Assembly: GCF_000166135.1 (NCBI RefSeq)
Contig: NC_014666.1
Coordinates: forward strand, 1,550,001-1,614,000
Direction: 5' to 3'
DNA from: Pseudofrankia inefficax
Lineage (GTDB): Bacteria > Actinomycetota > Actinomycetes > Frankiales > Frankiaceae
Length of the DNA stretch: 64,000 bases
Of this stretch, positions 5,571 to 41,366 are shown one piece after another. The notes under the pieces were generated by a model. It was given only the letters and a program-made list of their open reading frames with translations, had not been told where the DNA came from and searched no databases. Position 1 is the stretch's first letter. Each line of letters starts with the position of its first letter. Made by a program: the position numbers and the translations under genes.

Positions 5571-5902
5571 CGGGGGTACCTCCTACGGATACCTGTGCGA
5601 CCGAGAGCGGGTTCGGGGCGTGGTCCCCGTCAGCCACCATCGTGCCGGGCGGGTGCGACAACCGCCCCCGAGGCGGATCGGAGACGCGGTGATGTACGCC
5701 GCTGTTGGGCTGGTGTCCCGGACCTGGTAACCAACCGGCCGACCCGATCCCTTCAGCGCCTGCATCGTGCGCCCTTCCGGTGGATGATCGCGGTGTCGGC
5801 CAGCCAGCCGTCGCGTCATCTGTTACTTATGGGTAACCTATGACCCGCCGGCCGACGCCCCGGCACCGCCCGGCGGTGCCGCGCACCCGGGAGCGAGCAC
5901 CC
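5571..5902. other. Divergent intergenic region, glpD / acyl-CoA dehydrogenase
   Basis: 332 bp without a convincing gene. It must hold the promoters of glpD (leftward) and of the acyl-CoA dehydrogenase pair (rightward). It contains a GTTAC/GTAAC inverted repeat at 5822-5837 and two copies of GGTAACC (5726-5732 and 5832-5838). Confidence 0.6.
5822..5837. promoter_or_regulatory. Inverted repeat upstream of acyl-CoA dehydrogenase genes
   Basis: GTTACTTATGGGTAAC: 5-bp arms GTTAC/GTAAC separated by 6 bp, centred about 70 bp upstream of the chosen ATG. The AT-rich spacing and position fit an operator or promoter-overlapping site. No cognate regulator gene is adjacent. Confidence 0.4.
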
Positions 5903-7075
5903 ATGGATCTGACGTTCACCCCGCAGGAGGAGCAGTTCCGTTCGGAGCTGCGGAGCTGGCTCGACGCCAACATCCCCCAGGAGTGGCGCGAACCCGTCTT
6001 CTGGGAGCGGATCCCCGCGGACGAGGGCTTCGAGCTGCGCCGTGACTGGGAGCGGCGCAAGGCCGCGGCCGGGTTCGCCGGGATCGCCTGGCCCACCGAG
6101 TACGGCGGCCGCGGTGGCACGCCCGGCATGAAGGCGATCTACGACGAGGAGATGGCGCTCGCCAGCGCCCCCGAGTCGGCCAACGCGCTGGGCCTGACGT
6201 TCCTCGCGCCGACGGTCATGGCGATCGGCACCGAGGAGCAGAAGCGGGACATCATCGGCCCGATGCTGCGCAACGAGGTGATCTGGTGCCAGGGCTTCTC
6301 CGAGCCGGGCGCCGGCTCGGACCTCGCCGCGCTGCGCACCTCCGGCCGGCTGGAGGGCGACGAGTTCGTCGTCAACGGCCAGAAGATCTGGACCACCAAC
6401 GCGATGCACGGCGACAAGCTGTTCACCCTGGTGCGGACCGAGCCCGGTAGCCAGTCCCACCGCGGCATCTCGATGCTGCTCATCGACATGCACCAGGAGG
6501 GCGTCGAGGCTCGCCCGCTCAAGCAGATCAGCGGGGCATCCGAGTTCGGCGAGGTGTTCTTCACCGACGCCCGGGTCAAGGTGTCCGACTGCGTCGGCGG
6601 CGTCGGCAACGGCTGGAAGACCGCGATGATGCTGCTCTCCTTCGAGCGCGGCGCCTCCGGCATCTCCCAGTACGCGAACTACCGGCGCGGCTACGACCAG
6701 ATCGTCGCCGCCGCCCGCGTGCTCGGCCGGGACACCGACCCGACGCTGCGCCGTGAGCTCGCCAGCCGGCTCGTCGAGCTGGAGTGCCTGCGCTACCACG
6801 CCATGCACGTGCTCACCCAGGTCGAGCAGGGCCACGACCTCGGCTCCGAGTCCTCGATCACCAAGCTGCAGTGGTCGGAGACCTACCAGAAGCTGTTCGA
6901 GACGTTCGACCATCTGCTCGGCGTCGACGGCGTCCTCACCTCGCCGGTCGAGGGCCTGGACCTCAGCGCCCTGCAGCACGAGGCGTTCTGGACCCGGTCG
7001 GTGACGATCTGGGGTGGCTCGTCGCAGGTGCAGCGCAACATCGTCGCCGAGCGCGTGCTCGGCCTGCCGCGGTAA
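5903..7075 (+). CDS. Acyl-CoA dehydrogenase, large (alpha-type) subunit
   Basis: FAD-dependent alpha,beta-dehydrogenation of an acyl-CoA thioester. The chosen ATG (MDLTFTPQEEQF, preceded by GGAGCGAG) gives 390 aa, the usual family length; an upstream in-frame ATG would add a non-conserved tail. FAD/substrate motifs are intact (WCQGFSEPGAGSDLA, GQKIWTT, and C-terminal QRNIVAERVLGLPR). At the position where medium-chain enzymes have the catalytic Glu (YEGT) this protein has WGGS, so the base must sit elsewhere, as in the alpha subunits of actinobacterial alpha2beta2 FadE enzymes. The second gene, 14 nt downstream, encodes a beta-type partner. The two probably form a heterotetramer for a bulky or branched acyl-CoA. 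Confidence 0.85.
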   Translation: MDLTFTPQEEQFRSELRSWLDANIPQEWREPVFWERIPADEGFELRRDWERRKAAAGFAGIAWPTEYGGRGGTPGMKAIYDEEMALASAPESANALGLTFLAPTVMAIGTEEQKRDIIGPMLRNEVIWCQGFSEPGAGSDLAALRTSGRLEGDEFVVNGQKIWTTNAMHGDKLFTLVRTEPGSQSHRGISMLLIDMHQEGVEARPLKQISGASEFGEVFFTDARVKVSDCVGGVGNGWKTAMMLLSFERGASGISQYANYRRGYDQIVAAARVLGRDTDPTLRRELASRLVELECLRYHAMHVLTQVEQGHDLGSESSITKLQWSETYQKLFETFDHLLGVDGVLTSPVEGLDLSALQHEAFWTRSVTIWGGSSQVQRNIVAERVLGLPR

Positions 7076-7089
7076 GGGGACGAGGCACA

Positions 7090-8196
7090 GTGTTCTTCGC
7101 GCTGACCGATGAGCAGCGGGCGCTCGCCGAGACCGTCCGCGACTATCTCGCGGACCGGTTCGACCTGACCGCCGTCCGGGCCGTCTTCGAGGACACCGCC
7201 GGTGACGGTCACCCGGCCGACCTGTGGAAGGCGTTCGGCGAGCAGGGCTGGCTCGCGGTGCTCGTGCCCGAGGAGAACGACGGGCTCGGCCTCGGCCTGC
7301 TGGACGCGCAGGTCATCGCCCGCGCGCTCGGGGCCGGCGCGGTGCCCGGGCCGTGGCTGGCGACCGTGCTCGCCGGCGAGGCGGTCCGGCTCGCGGGCTC
7401 CGCCGAGCAGCGTGCCGCCGTGCTCGGCCCGCTCGCCGCCGGCGAGCTGGTCGCGACGGTCGCGCTGCGCGCTCCCGGCAAGGCGTTCGACGTGTCCGGG
7501 GTGGGCGTCACCGCCGACGCCGACGGGCGGCTGACCGGGACGGCGTCGCCGGTCGAGTACCCGGCGGTCGCGCGCCTCGCCGTCGTCGCGGCCACCGAGC
7601 CCGACGGCGGGATCGGCCTCTACCTCGTCGAACCGACCGCCCCGGGGGTCACGGTCGCCCCGCACACCAGCTACGACGCCACGACGAGGCTCGGCGGCCT
7701 TACGTTCGCCGGCGCCGCCGGCGAGCGGCTGGCGGGCTCCAGCGGCGACGTGCTCGCCGACCTGAACCGGCGCGGCGCGGTGCTCACCGCCGCCGACCTC
7801 GTCGGCTCCGCGCGGGCCGCGATCACCCGGACCGTCGAGTACGACAAGACCCGGGTCCAGTTCGGCAAGGCGGTCGGCAGCTTCCAGGCGATCAAGCACA
7901 CCCTCGCCGACCTGCACGTCGCGGTCCTGATGGCCGAGCACGCCGCGCTGTACGCCGCGCACGCGCTCGACGAGGCCCTGCCCGACGCCGAGCTCGCCGT
8001 CGCGGTCGCCAAGGCCAAGGCCAACGACGCCGCGACCGCCGCGACCGGCGCGATGATCCAGTACCACGGGGGCATCGGCTTCACCTGGGAGCACGAGGCC
8101 CACTTCTTCTACAAGCGGGCCAAGCGCCTCGTCGGCACCTTCGGCGACTCCGCCCAGCACCTGGACCGCGTCGCCGCGCTCAGCCTCGACAACTGA
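7090..8196 (+). CDS. Acyl-CoA dehydrogenase, small (beta-type) subunit
   Basis: Second acyl-CoA dehydrogenase in the operon, 368 aa from GTG (VFFALTDEQRALAETVRDYL), starting 14 nt after the upstream stop behind AAGGGGACGAGG. It has the N-terminal helical domain, a short and divergent beta-barrel domain, and the C-terminal helical motif RVQFGKAVGSFQAIKHTLAD, with GGIGFTWEHEAHFFYKRAKRL near the end. The poorly conserved middle domain is typical of beta chains in two-gene FadE pairs such as FadE26-FadE27 or FadE28-FadE29 of steroid catabolism. Formation of a heteromer is inferred from the adjacency and the subunit types. Confidence 0.85.
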   Translation: MFFALTDEQRALAETVRDYLADRFDLTAVRAVFEDTAGDGHPADLWKAFGEQGWLAVLVPEENDGLGLGLLDAQVIARALGAGAVPGPWLATVLAGEAVRLAGSAEQRAAVLGPLAAGELVATVALRAPGKAFDVSGVGVTADADGRLTGTASPVEYPAVARLAVVAATEPDGGIGLYLVEPTAPGVTVAPHTSYDATTRLGGLTFAGAAGERLAGSSGDVLADLNRRGAVLTAADLVGSARAAITRTVEYDKTRVQFGKAVGSFQAIKHTLADLHVAVLMAEHAALYAAHALDEALPDAELAVAVAKAKANDAATAATGAMIQYHGGIGFTWEHEAHFFYKRAKRLVGTFGDSAQHLDRVAALSLDN

Positions 8197-27753: not shown

Positions 27754-27773
27754 TACCAAGCAAACGCTTGGTA
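27754..27773. promoter_or_regulatory. Palindromic operator upstream of thiolase gene
   Basis: TACCAAGCAAACGCTTGGTA: perfect 8-bp arms TACCAAGC/GCTTGGTA around AAAC, centred about 22 bp before the GTG of the thiolase. The half-sites (ACCAAG/CTTGGT) match those of the KstR2 operator upstream of the EchA20-like operon at 40.93 kb, but with a 6-bp rather than 2-bp gap between them, so it is either a variant site or the target of another TetR protein. Confidence 0.7.
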
Positions 27774-27785
27774 GCGTGACCTGTC

Positions 27786-28937
27786 GTGCCAGCGGCCTAC
27801 ATCGTTGAAGCGGTCCGGACCCCGGTCGGGCGGCGCGGGGGCGCCCTGTCGGGCGTACACCCAGCCGACCTGGGGGCGGCCGCGATCAGCGCCCTGATGG
27901 AGCGTTCGGGCGTCGACCCGGCCGCGGTCGAGGACGTCATCTTCGGATGCGTCGACGCGGTCGGCCCGCAGGCCGGTGACATCGCCCGGACCTGCTGGCT
28001 GGTCGCCGGACTGCCCGACCACGTGCCGGGCACGACCGTCGACCGGCAGTGCGGCTCATCCCAGCAGGCCGTGCACTTCGCGGCGCAGGCGGTGCTGTCG
28101 GGCACGGCGGACCTGGTCGTCGCCGGTGGCGTGCAGAACATGAGCGCGATCCCGATCTCCTACGCCATGACCGCCGGGCAGGCGCTCGGCTTCGCCGACC
28201 CGTTCTCCGGCTCGCCGGGCTGGCGGGCGCGCTACGGCGACGGCGAGGTCTCCCAGTTCCGCTCGGCCGAGATGATCGCCGAGAAGTGGTCGCTGAGCCG
28301 GGACGTGATGGAGCGGTTCGCGGTCCGTTCGCACGAGCGGGCGATCGCGGCCCGCGCCGAGGGCCGGTTCGACCGGGAGATCGTGCCCGCGTTCGGCCTG
28401 ACCGCCGACGAGGGCCCGCGCGAACCGAACTGGGCGAAGATCCGCTCCCTGCCGACGCTGATGCACGGTGGGCGGGTCACGGCGGCCACCGCGAGCCAGA
28501 TCTCGGACGGCTCGGCCGCGCTGCTGATCGCCAGCGAGGCCGCGGTCCGGACCCACGGACTGACCCCACGCGCCCGCGTCGACCACATCTCCGTGCGCGG
28601 CGCGGACCCGGTCTGGATGCTGACCGCGCCGATCCCGGCGACCGCGCACGCGCTGGCGAAGGCCGGCCGCACACTCGACGACATCGACCTCGTCGAGATC
28701 AACGAGGCCTTCGCCTCCGTGGTGCTCGCCTGGGCCGCCGAGACCGGCGCGGACCCGGAGAAGGTGAACGTCAACGGCGGCGCGATCGCGCTGGGCCACC
28801 CGCTCGGCGCCACCGGTGCCCGCCTGATGACCACCCTGCTGCACGAGCTGGAGCGCACCGGCGGCCGGTTCGGCCTGCAGACCATGTGCGAGGGCGGCGG
28901 CCAGGCCAACGTCACCATCCTGGAACGGCTGGGCTGA
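27786..28937 (+). CDS. Thiolase, FadA6-like
   Basis: 383-aa acetyl-CoA acyltransferase that cleaves a beta-ketoacyl-CoA. Acyl-enzyme Cys in TVDRQCGSSQQAVHFAAQAV near residue 88, His in VEINEAFA, and the C-terminal GGAIALGHPLGATGAR plus the second Cys in MCEGGGQANV. The details (RTPVGRRGGALSGVHPADLGA, GGVQNMSAIPISYAM, YGDGEVSQFRSAEMIAEKWSLSR) resemble my recollection of mycobacterial FadA6, the thiolase of steroid ring C/D degradation; this is from memory, not alignment. GTG start about 13 bp after the palindrome at 27754. It is followed by an SDR gene on the same strand 30 bp later. Confidence 0.9.
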   Translation: MPAAYIVEAVRTPVGRRGGALSGVHPADLGAAAISALMERSGVDPAAVEDVIFGCVDAVGPQAGDIARTCWLVAGLPDHVPGTTVDRQCGSSQQAVHFAAQAVLSGTADLVVAGGVQNMSAIPISYAMTAGQALGFADPFSGSPGWRARYGDGEVSQFRSAEMIAEKWSLSRDVMERFAVRSHERAIAARAEGRFDREIVPAFGLTADEGPREPNWAKIRSLPTLMHGGRVTAATASQISDGSAALLIASEAAVRTHGLTPRARVDHISVRGADPVWMLTAPIPATAHALAKAGRTLDDIDLVEINEAFASVVLAWAAETGADPEKVNVNGGAIALGHPLGATGARLMTTLLHELERTGGRFGLQTMCEGGGQANVTILERLG

Positions 28938-36711: not shown

Positions 36712-37607
36712 TCAGTCGCTGGATTCGGCGGCGCGGCGGGCGTCACGCATCGAGCGGGCGTCCTGGCCGGCGAGGGGGTCGGTTCCGACCTCGGCGTTGT
36801 GGGCGTGCGCCAGGTGGTGCAGTCCGAAGACGGAGTCCATGCCGGCCTGGAGGCCCATCAGGTCTTCGGCCTGGTTCACCGCCTTCTTGGTGAGGGCGAG
36901 TCCAAGGCGGGGCATCGTCGCGATGCGCTCGGCGACCGCGGTCACCTCGGTGGCGAGGCCGTCGCGGGGGACCACCCGGTTGACCATGCCCAGCTCCAGT
37001 GCGCGGCGGGCGGCGACGCGTTCGCCGAGGAACAGGAACTCCTTCGCCGCTCTCGGCCCCATCACCCACGGATGCGCGAAGTACTCGACCCCCGGAATGC
37101 CCATCCGCACGACCGGGTCGGCGAAGAACGCGTCGTCGGAGGCGATGATCAGGTCGCAGACCCAGGCGAGCATCAGACCGCCGGCGATGCAGGCGCCGTG
37201 CACCTGGGCGATCATCGGCTTCGGCAGTTCCCGCCACCGCCGGCACATTCCCAGGTACACCTCCTGCTCGCGGGCGAACCGGCTCTCCGCGCCGGAGGCG
37301 CCGACGTGGTCCCACCACAGGCCCGCGCGCCGGGTGAACGACTGGTCGATGTCCCGCCCCGGGGTTCCGATGTCGTGGCCGGCGCTGAAGTGCCGGCCCG
37401 CGCCGGCCAGCACGATGACCTTCACCTCGGGATCGGCCGCGGCCCGGTAGAACGCGTCGTCCAGGGCGTAGGTCATCTTCGAGTTCTGGGCGTTACGGAA
37501 CTCGGGCCGGTTCATCGTGACCCGCGCGACCGGCCCGGTCACCTCGTACAGCACCACCGGAGGCTCGGCATCGTCGGCCGTCGGCGCCGGCTGGGCGATC
37601 TGCTCGG

Positions 37608-37611
<4 letters not shown>
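36712..37611 (-). CDS. Enoyl-CoA hydratase/isomerase (crotonase) family protein
   Basis: 299 aa from ATG with GGAAGGGAAA upstream; starts further upstream in this frame lie inside the preceding gene. Crotonase fold: VTMNRPEFRNAQNSKM, oxyanion-hole segments AGRHFSAGHDIG and HGACIAGGLMLAWVCDLIIASDDAFFADP, then GIPGVEYFAHPWVMGPRAAKEFLFLGERVAARRALELGMVNRVVP. The residues after DP (VVRMG) do not show the usual hydratase Glu pair clearly, so it could be a hydratase, isomerase or C-C hydrolase. Last gene of the EchA20-like operon; its ATG overlaps the previous stop by 4 nt. Confidence 0.9.
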
Positions 37612-38891
<1,280 letters not shown>

Positions 38892-38917: not shown

Positions 38918-40105
38918 TCAGACCCTGGGCAGGCCGAGGAGGCGTTCGGCGACGACGTTCCGCTGGATCTCGTTGGTGCCGGCGTAGATCGGGCCCGACA
39001 GCGAGAACAGGAAGCCCTTGCTCCACGGGCCGTCCAACTCGGCACCCGCACCCAGCAGATCGAGCGCGGTCTCGTGGATGCGGACGTCCAGCTCCGACCA
39101 GAAGAGCTTGTTCAGGCTCGACGCCGCTCCGGGCTGTCGGCCGTTGAGCAGGCCGCTGACCTGGTGCAGCGTGAAGAGCTGGTAGGCCTGTGCGTCGATG
39201 TGGGCCTGTACGACACGGTCGCGAACCGCCGCCGGCAGCCCGCCGGGAGTGGCGCGGGCGAGCTCGACCAAGCGGTTCGCGGTGGCCAGGAACCGGCCCG
39301 GCGGGCGCAGCGTCAGGCCGCGTTCGGAGCCGGTCGTCGCCATCGCGACCTGCCAGCCCCTGCCCACGCCACCGAGGACGTTCTCGGTGGGGACGAAGAC
39401 GTCGTCGAGGAAGACCTCGGCGAAGCCCTCGTCACCATCCAGGCGCTCGAAGCCGCGGACCGTCACCCCCGGCGCGTCCAGCGGCACCAGGAAGTACGTG
39501 AGCCCGTGATGCCTGCCTCCGGCCCGGCCTGTGCGTGGCCCGGCTTCCGGCTCCGAAGCCGGTGCAGCGGGCGTGCCAGTCCGGAACAGACCGAACAGGT
39601 GGGTGCAGAACGCGCCCCGGGTCGTCCAGGTCTTCTGGCCGGAAAGACGCCAGCCACCGCCTTCGACGTCTTCGACCCCGGTGGAACGCAGACCGGCGAG
39701 ATCGCTGCCCGCGCCCGGCTCGGACCAGCCCTGCGCCCAGGTGTCCAGGCCGGCGGCCATCCGGGGGAGGATCCGGTCCTGCTGCTCGGGAGTGCCGAAC
39801 TCGAAGACGGTCGGGGCGAGCAGGAAGATCCCGTTCTGGGTGACCCGCTGCGGGGCGCCGGCCCGGGCGTACTCCTCCTCGAAGACCAGCCACTGCCAGA
39901 GGCTCGCGTCCCGGCCCCCATAGCGCTCCGGCCAGGAGACGACCGCCCAGCGAGCCTCGAAGAGCCGCCGTTCCCAGTCGAGATGGGCGGCGAAGCCCGT
40001 TCGGGTGTCGCCGGACGGTAACGGCGTCGCCGGCACGTTCGCCGTCAGCCACGCCCTGGCCTCGGCGCGGAACGCCTCATCCTCGTCCGACCAGGTCAGG
40101 TCCAT
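38918..40105 (-). CDS. Acyl-CoA dehydrogenase, FadE31-like large subunit
   Basis: 395 aa from ATG (MDLTWSDEDEAFRAEARAWL), whose A overlaps the previous gene's stop (TGATG). FAD/acyl binding motifs WAQGWSEPGAGSDLAGLRSTG and GQKTWTTRGAFC are intact, and the C-terminus ends GPIYAGTNEIQRNVVAERLLGLPR. In place of the YEGT glutamate there is YAGT, as in alpha chains of steroid-type dehydrogenases. Text such as HHGLTYFLVPLDAPGVTVRGFERL and GPWSKGFLFSL resembles mycobacterial FadE31 from memory. Residues 170-190 hold a Pro/Ala/Glu/Gly-rich insertion. Expected to form an alpha2beta2 complex with the next gene product. Confidence 0.88.
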   Translation of the reverse strand: MDLTWSDEDEAFRAEARAWLTANVPATPLPSGDTRTGFAAHLDWERRLFEARWAVVSWPERYGGRDASLWQWLVFEEEYARAGAPQRVTQNGIFLLAPTVFEFGTPEQQDRILPRMAAGLDTWAQGWSEPGAGSDLAGLRSTGVEDVEGGGWRLSGQKTWTTRGAFCTHLFGLFRTGTPAAPASEPEAGPRTGRAGGRHHGLTYFLVPLDAPGVTVRGFERLDGDEGFAEVFLDDVFVPTENVLGGVGRGWQVAMATTGSERGLTLRPPGRFLATANRLVELARATPGGLPAAVRDRVVQAHIDAQAYQLFTLHQVSGLLNGRQPGAASSLNKLFWSELDVRIHETALDLLGAGAELDGPWSKGFLFSLSGPIYAGTNEIQRNVVAERLLGLPRV

Positions 40106-40896
40106 CAGCCGTCGCCCTGATCGGCCTTCTGATCGGTCCCGTCCGGGGCCGGCTCGGCCTTCGGCGTGGAACCGAAGCCGGAGCGGACCTCGTCGGCGAT
40201 GCCGGCCAGGTTGAGCTCGAAGGTGAAGCCCTGCTCGAAGCGGTAGCTGCGTTTGACGTCCCACGGGTCGATCCCGTTGAACGCCTCCTTGGCCATCCGG
40301 ATCACCCGCGGGTCCTTCGCGGCGATCTCGCCGGCGACGGCTCGGGCCGCGTCCCGCAGCTTGGCGCGCGGGACGACGGTGTGCACCGAGCCGAACGCGT
40401 GCAGCTCGGCGGCGGTCGCCGTGGCCGAGGTGTACATCATCGCCCTGGCCTTCAGCTGCGGGACCAGCCGCGACAGGTGGGTCGCGGCGCCGAGCGCGCC
40501 CCGGTCGACCTCGGGTAGGCCGAAGGTGGCGTCGTCGCTGGCGACGATCACGTCGGCGTTGCCGACCAGCCCGATCCCGCCGCCCAGGCAGAAGCCGTGC
40601 ACCGCGGCGACGACCGGGACCGCACAGTCGTAGACCGCGGCGAAGGCGGCGAAGCAGCCACGGTTAGCGCCGATGAGCGCCTGATGGCCCTTGTCGCGCT
40701 GGATCTCCTTGATGTCGACGCCCGCGTTGAATCCGCGTCCTTCAGCCCGCAGGACGACGACCCGGACGGCCGGGTTCGCGCCCGCGGCCCGCAGCTCGTC
40801 CGCGAGGGCGTACCAGCCGGCCACCGGGAGCGCGTTCACCGGCGGGTAGTCGACGACGATCTCGGCGATCCCGCCGTCCACCACCGTAGTGATCAT
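40105..40896 (-). CDS. EchA20-like steroid ring D CoA hydrolase
   Basis: 263 aa from ATG with GGAGGTTGG upstream. Crotonase-fold protein whose text (VDYPPVNALP, GRGFNAGVDIKEIQR, ANRGCFAAFAAVYDCAVPVVAAVHGFCLGGGIGLVG, then DATFGLPEVDRGALGAATHL) closely matches my recollection of mycobacterial EchA20, including the C-terminal EQGFTFELNLAGIADE. EchA20 hydrolytically opens the remaining steroid ring in the bicyclic CoA intermediate (HIEC-CoA) during cholesterol ring C/D degradation. First gene of a four-gene operon, with a KstR2-type operator 32 bp upstream of the start codon. IpdAB, FadD3 and KstR2 itself are not in this window. Confidence 0.9.
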   Translation of the reverse strand: MITTVVDGGIAEIVVDYPPVNALPVAGWYALADELRAAGANPAVRVVVLRAEGRGFNAGVDIKEIQRDKGHQALIGANRGCFAAFAAVYDCAVPVVAAVHGFCLGGGIGLVGNADVIVASDDATFGLPEVDRGALGAATHLSRLVPQLKARAMMYTSATATAAELHAFGSVHTVVPRAKLRDAARAVAGEIAAKDPRVIRMAKEAFNGIDPWDVKRSYRFEQGFTFELNLAGIADEVRSGFGSTPKAEPAPDGTDQKADQGDG

Positions 40897-40927
40897 CCAA
40901 CCTCCAGGATCGAGCCGCGAGCACTCT

Positions 40928-40941
40928 AACAAGCGCTTGGT
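40928..40941. promoter_or_regulatory. KstR2-type operator
   Basis: AACAAGCGCTTGGT fits the KstR2 consensus AnCAAGnnCTTGnT at every fixed position. It lies 32 bp upstream of the EchA20-like start codon. KstR2 is the TetR repressor of the steroid ring C/D regulon, released by HIP-CoA. A second inverted repeat (TGGTTGGCAAACCA) overlaps its right half at 40938-40951. Confidence 0.85.
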
Positions 40942-41366
40942 TGGCAAACCAGCGTTGCCGGGCCGGGCGCTCCGCGGCCGTCGCCCGCCCGGCTCGCGCC
41001 TGGGCCCGCCCGGCTCGCGACCCCGCCGACCGGGCCCGCGCCTCCGCCCGGCCCGGCCCGACCCGCGCCGCCCCCCGGCGCCCGCCGCCCGCGCGCCGGA
41101 AGGCGTCGGAGGCGTCCGAGGCGTCCGAGGCGTCGGAGGAGTCGGCGACGCTCGCCCGGCGCGGTCGTTGGATGTGGCGGAAATGGTCGCCGAATGTTCG
41201 GTTTCGAGGTTGGAATGCCCTCGACCGCACAACCTCCGGTACATGTCGGAAATGCGACTGGACGGGTGCCGACACGCCCTGTCGTTGGATTGACGGCGCG
41301 AACCGGTGTCATTGGCGTGGGTCGTTCGCACAATTGCTCTACTGACGTTGTGGGAAGGATCTGGCG
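40942..41366. other. Intergenic low-complexity region
   Basis: About 425 bp without a supportable gene. The left half is C/G low complexity with a short GGCGTCsGA repeat (about 41100-41145). The right half (about 41170-41366) is less GC-biased and should contain the promoter for the secreted protein at 41367. Confidence 0.5.

Follow-up and report, generated by a model that had tools for sequence, protein, structure and literature searches.

The window analysed here, a 64-kb stretch (bases 1,550,001-1,614,000) of the genome of Pseudofrankia inefficax, a soil-living member of the Frankiaceae, carries on its minus strand a four-gene operon headed by a crotonase gene at 40105-40896. This gene was identified as the orthologue of echA20 (HIEC-CoA ring hydrolase), with its ATG at 40894-40896 and GGAGG at 40901-40905. 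The reading frame itself spans 40105-41331, and the start at 41331 was rejected because homology, the GGAGG and the position of the operator box described below place the start at 40896. Against the model NF005925/PRK07938 the protein scored 418.9 bits (cut-off 260; next family 188), so that the EchA20-like identity proposed in the earlier note held and no unrelated crotonase family gave a better match. It was the sole gene of the genome matching EchA20 below E 1e-60, the next crotonase showing 40% identity. The protein was 72-74% identical to crotonases in the ipd clusters of Nocardia farcinica and Nonomuraea, which adjoin ipdF, ipdB and ipdC in the former and ipdB in the latter. It was 71% identical to Mycobacterium EchA20, where the gene order is ipdF / echA20-ipdA-ipdB-ipdC, the layout also of M. 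tuberculosis Rv3549c-Rv3553. EchA20 orthologues stand beside ipdF, ipdA, ipdB and ipdC in Mycobacterium, Nocardia and Streptomyces. The EchA20 stretch on a contig of Pseudofrankia sp. BMG5.36 matched that of one genus relative (L020) without a difference, and P0001 at 93% identity.

The three genes that follow are also on the minus strand. The first (38918-40105), whose ATG overlaps the echA20 stop, encodes a FadE31-like large acyl-CoA dehydrogenase subunit with 59% identity to its counterpart in N. farcinica, located behind fadD3 and a hydratase gene, and 51% to that in the HIP cluster of Vibrio alfacsensis. The second (37608-38891) encodes a FadE32-like small subunit with low-complexity inserts; at 28-29% identity to the cluster counterparts, its assignment is the weaker one. 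When this protein was tried as IpdE2/FadE33, it reached 85.7 bits against a cut-off of 450, and no IpdE2/FadE33 above the cut-off was found in the genome, the copy of N. farcinica falling below it likewise. The same protein also contains an insert rich in serine and alanine and, internally, a short duplication (AARDATLAARDA). The last gene (36712-37611), whose ATG overlaps the stop of the fadE32-like gene, encodes a ScdN/RHA1_RS22405-type enoyl-CoA hydratase of the HIP pathway, 73% identical to the N. farcinica hydratase encoded between fadD3 and fadE31 and 64% to that of the Vibrio HIP cluster. The dehydrogenase pair and crotonase that had been read downstream of echA20 were thus recovered, and such a pair with a hydratase has been assigned to the end of the HIP pathway (PMC8399759). 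Elsewhere in the window, a second acyl-CoA dehydrogenase pair is found at 5840-8196 with no KstR2 box, and the segment 15127-19859 resembles by sequence a tryptophan (kynurenine) catabolic cluster, with an FAD monooxygenase, a kynureninase, an amidohydrolase, a 3-hydroxyanthranilate dioxygenase and a RidA-like protein.

Upstream of echA20, the palindrome AACAAGCGCTTGGT (ACCAAGCGCTTGTT in the echA20 sense; no strand assigned) was located at 40928-40941. It fits the KstR2 consensus AnCAAGnnCTTGnT with 0 mismatches, as had been claimed, and is the sole exact match in the window, in which 3 matches at one mismatch or fewer were found versus 0.24 in shuffles. The gap between box and ATG is 31 bp, correcting the 32 bp given in the earlier note; at regulated promoters the published box-to-start distances are 22-82 bp (PMC3068626). 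The 14-bp palindrome was derived from the kstR2 promoters of mycobacteria, Nocardia and Rhodococcus, and the consensus, the binding of KstR2 to it and its use as a repressor site have been published (PMC3068626). A predicted echA20 promoter is formed on the minus strand by a -35-like TGGTTT (40946-40951), mostly unchanged among eight genomes of the genus, and, 17 bp from it, a -10-like TAGAGT (40923-40928), invariant in eight genomes. In the echA20 promoter, and likewise in that of fadA6, the box takes up the 17 bp that separate the conserved TGGTTT from TAGAGT/TAGCGT, which we infer to be -35 and -10 elements; a plain sigma-70 scan gave no match.

The fadA6 orthologue (beta-ketoacyl-CoA thiolase) lies in the same window on the plus strand at 27786-28937 and was recognised by NF005865 with 675.6 bits (cut-off 591). 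Its product is 68-69% identical to thiolases encoded next to kstR2 in N. farcinica and Nonomuraea, and 63% identical to that of Vibrio. Upstream of it, at 27759-27772 (no strand assigned), stands the box AGCAAACGCTTGGT with one mismatch. A wider operator, ACCAAGC-N4-GCTTGGT, was considered for fadA6 and rejected for the genus, since five of the eight relatives have the narrow, exact consensus AGCAAGCGCTTGGT at this site and have lost the left outer half-site. The wider spacing also fits the sites at fadE30 and ipdF/ipdA, with mismatches.

The genome was searched for the partners that an HIP regulon should include, as had been recommended. A TetR repressor gene at C1:2326825-2327436 encodes KstR2, its top solved relatives being 4W1U and 4W97 (M. 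tuberculosis KstR2) and 2IBD (Rhodococcus) at E 1.8e-55; the identity to the solved relatives is 47% (89/191) and the recognition helix is nearly unchanged. The gene has an exact, perfect palindrome, ACCAAGCGCTTGGT, in front of it; next in line come a FadE30-like gene (65% to Nonomuraea) and a gene for an SDR. The same locus (C1:2.326-2.344 Mb) continues at 2.340-2.344 Mb with ipdF (75% to N. farcinica) and, divergently, ipdA, ipdB and ipdC; the top solved relatives of IpdA are the IpdA structures 6CON and 6CO6 (E 9e-102). Together, EchA20, IpdA, IpdB, IpdC, IpdF and FadA6 share 57-75% identity with steroid-degrader enzymes. A FadD3 family ligase was found outside both regulon loci, at C1:5833943-5835490 (706 bits, cut-off 657), with no KstR2 box near it. 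The OB-fold/Ltp-type thiolase trio known from steroid clusters has homologues some 16 kb ahead of kstR2 (L005:7051-10505), again with no KstR2 box. Beside the ipd cluster, a KstR-like TetR gene lies at C1:2346027-2346578 (L096:6-605), with counterparts in all eight genomes of the genus.

Since KstR2, IpdA and IpdB are present and the crotonase is the only EchA20-type gene, the earlier proposal of a steroid ring C/D (HIP) regulon in this organism is supported, with IpdC and IpdF also present and boxes at target promoters. The search for further sites returned boxes at kstR2, fadA6, fadE30 and ipdF/ipdA, the boxes at the last three differing from the consensus at one position. Exact AnCAAGnnCTTGnT sites occur 4 times in the single-contig genome of 8,815,781 bp and the reversed pattern, used as control, occurs 11 times; because the reversed pattern is the commoner, the count of exact boxes alone proves nothing. 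Their placement is more telling: two of the four stand before echA20 and kstR2, for which the binomial P, taking five 300-bp promoters, is about 2e-7. When sites within one mismatch of AnCAAGCGCTTGnT were taken, five of the 11 in the genome fell at the kstR2, echA20, fadA6, fadE30 and ipdF/ipdA promoters (P about 7e-17 for five 300-bp promoters, the GC centre having been chosen post hoc). The other two exact boxes (C1:1154685 and C1:6179367) had no HIP gene behind them on inspection, nor did the one-mismatch sites at 4705690, 5103090, 5597068, 6275596 and 7868572 stand before HIP genes, and all were treated as chance matches. At C1:2010697, TCCAAGCAAACGCTTGGC precedes the gene of a small protein resembling an antitoxin.

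Across eight genomes of the genus, all 14 box columns are invariant at echA20, kstR2 and fadE30, and 13 of 14 at fadA6; in the flank from 40 to 11 bp upstream of the box, the number of invariant columns out of 30 is 0 at echA20, kstR2 and fadE30 and 2 at fadA6. The echA20 box is identical in 8/8 genomes, and the ipdF/ipdA box, AGCAAGCGCTTGTG, in the 7/7 checked. From this sequence evidence, the site upstream of echA20 is very probably a working KstR2 operator in an HIP regulon, KstR2 binding and repression in P. inefficax being presumed. Three findings weigh against it: the fadD3 candidate without a box in its vicinity; the weak match of the FadE32-like subunit and the lack of an IpdE2/FadE33 above the cut-off, under which the N. 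farcinica copy falls too; and a genome-wide number of exact boxes no higher than that of the control pattern.

Genes for rings A and B were sought with HsaC, HsaA and KstR models. The best match of the genome to the HsaC-type model reached 24 bits versus 327 for N. farcinica HsaC with the same model. HsaA above the 450-bit cut-off was found in 0 of 35 family genomes, the best own match scoring 203 versus 702 in N. farcinica, and no family genome had KstR above the cut-off of 280, the best own match (154) being the TetR gene beside the ipd cluster. The ring-C/D regulon thus seems to stand here with the classical ring-A/B genes lacking, and full steroid catabolism in P. inefficax is not supported. 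Since these models recovered neither HsaC nor an HsaA above the cut-off, uptake of HIP or a similar hydrindanone is most likely, rather than degradation of sterols from the start.

The proposed mechanism builds on the box, gene content, synteny, footprint and co-occurrence observed here, takes the enzyme steps and the effector from the literature, and presumes binding, repression and substrate. KstR2, encoded about 0.74 Mb away, would bind the 14-bp palindrome as a dimer and, seated between the -35-like and -10-like elements, would block transcription of echA20-fadE31-fadE32-hydratase. A FadD3-type ligase would make HIP-CoA, the CoA ester of the steroid ring-C/D remnant, and the repressor would then be released, so that the echA20 operon, fadA6, fadE30, ipdF/ipdABC and kstR2 would be switched on together. 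EchA20 would open ring D of HIEC-CoA hydrolytically, IpdAB would open the remaining ring, FadA6 would cleave what results, and MOODA-CoA would be finished by the two FadE subunits together with the hydratase. The chemistry of EchA20 and IpdAB has been published (PMC5380842), as has HIP-CoA as the KstR2 effector (PMC7807495); binding and repression by KstR2 have been published for mycobacteria and Rhodococcus only (PMC3068626).

Three other explanations were weighed. Random matches to the palindrome are expected at this genome size, as the 4 exact sites against 11 of the reversed pattern illustrate, and the box could in principle be one of these or could serve an unrelated TetR regulator as its operator; this is very improbable, since the same box stands before kstR2 itself and other pathway operons, and in all four promoter alignments made across the genus it forms the conserved block. 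Degradation of whole sterols, with ring-A/B genes that are of another type or too diverged for the cut-offs, would accommodate the distant HsaA-like monooxygenase (203 bits), the KstR-like TetR protein (154 bits) beside the ipd cluster, and the Ltp-like thiolases and OB-fold protein near kstR2. The HsaC-type match of only 24 bits (327 in N. farcinica) argues against it, as does the HsaA-like protein, which is far under a cut-off that none of the 35 family genomes passes, and we consider whole-sterol degradation unlikely.

A slightly smaller likelihood was given to a KstR2-like regulator and operon serving a pathway for another hydrindanone or a terpenoid, with the CoA ester of that compound as effector. 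Such a pathway would fit the absence of HsaC and the sub-threshold HsaA and KstR matches in a genus that yet keeps EchA20, KstR2 and FadA6 in 8/8 genomes; the identity of 57-75% between the six enzymes named above and those of steroid degraders speaks against it.

A further-reaching reading, held tentatively and at somewhat less than even confidence, is a genus-wide, KstR2-controlled ring-C/D pathway kept without that for rings A and B, by which Pseudofrankia would act as a specialist scavenger of HIP or another hydrindanone released by other steroid degraders or by plants. Cross-feeding on excreted steroid intermediates has been discussed (PMC8399759).

With the KstR2 regulon of M. tuberculosis, M. 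smegmatis and Rhodococcus jostii RHA1, Pseudofrankia has in common the 14-bp box, the orthologous repressor with a box before its own gene, and the enzymes EchA20, IpdA/B/C/F, FadA6, FadE30, FadE31/32 and the FadD3 family. The mycobacteria and RHA1 have their boxes in a single cluster that surrounds kstR2 (PMC3068626), whereas the Pseudofrankia regulon is split between two loci 0.74 Mb apart, echA20 stands apart from ipdABC at the head of the fadE31-fadE32-hydratase operon, and the fadD3 candidate lacks a box. Proteobacterial HIP (scd) clusters, such as that on a Vibrio alfacsensis plasmid (L013), also have EchA20 followed directly by both acyl-CoA dehydrogenase subunits, large and small, and by a thiolase, with the same hydratase nearby, but the Vibrio EchA20 is just 50% identical to that of Pseudofrankia. 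Nearly the same order is found in the echA20-fadE31-fadE32-hydratase operons of Virgisporangium and Blastococcus, whose EchA20 is 80-82% identical and on the same tree branch; they differ in that the 400 bp next to echA20 hold no exact KstR2 box and that ipdB/ipdC and a gene for an SDR are found immediately upstream. The echA20 promoters of many Streptomyces (loci L123-L180) carry a consistent variant of the KstR2 box, AACAAATGTTTGGT or AACAAACGTTTGGT, whose distance from the gene is often the same.

Within Frankiaceae, EchA20 and KstR2 co-occur in the same 10 of 35 genomes, namely 8/8 of Pseudofrankia, 2/6 of one other genus and 0/21 of the others; genomes of g2, probably Frankia proper, had neither at the thresholds used. 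In the EchA20 tree, the Pseudofrankia sequences share a group (support 95/96) with those of Virgisporangium, Blastococcus and uncultured actinobacteria, and the two other-genus Frankiaceae genomes group with Nocardia, Mycobacterium and Tsukamurella (98/93). Since these lineages fall in different parts of the tree, there was no single recent family-wide copy. Separate acquisition of EchA20 by two Frankiaceae lineages is one reading and old diversity followed by losses is another; Pseudofrankia may have acquired the regulon. In the other-genus genomes G019 and G021, a KstR2 orthologue (69%) is accompanied by a KstR2 paralogue (45%) beside echA20-ipdC (L049, L050), and the ipdF/echA20 gap holds a wider palindrome, ACCAAGCAATCGCTAGGT (L022:1458-1475, L023:2279-2296); the paralogue is possibly a second regulator with a shifted operator. 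FadA6-like thiolases (64-65%) in G001 and G010 (L061, L062), which lack KstR2 and EchA20, are preceded by a related palindrome, ACCAATCGTTTGGT.

Frankiaceae are not among the genera named in the text of a 2016 genome survey of steroid degraders (PMC4810484). On the basis of one homologue of 3-ketosteroid 9alpha-monooxygenase, it was proposed in 2023 that some Frankia use cholesterol (PMC9956245). The present results extend the KstR2/HIP regulon of mycobacteria, which in M. tuberculosis includes virulence determinants, to a plant-associated genus of the Frankiaceae. The type of regulon is already known, and the apparent lack of ring-A/B genes is the mildly unexpected point. If it is true that the ring-C/D module is kept without the ring-A/B pathway, the KstR2 regulon would count as an independent catabolic module, and HIP cross-feeding, hitherto only proposed, would become directly testable by a single culture experiment.
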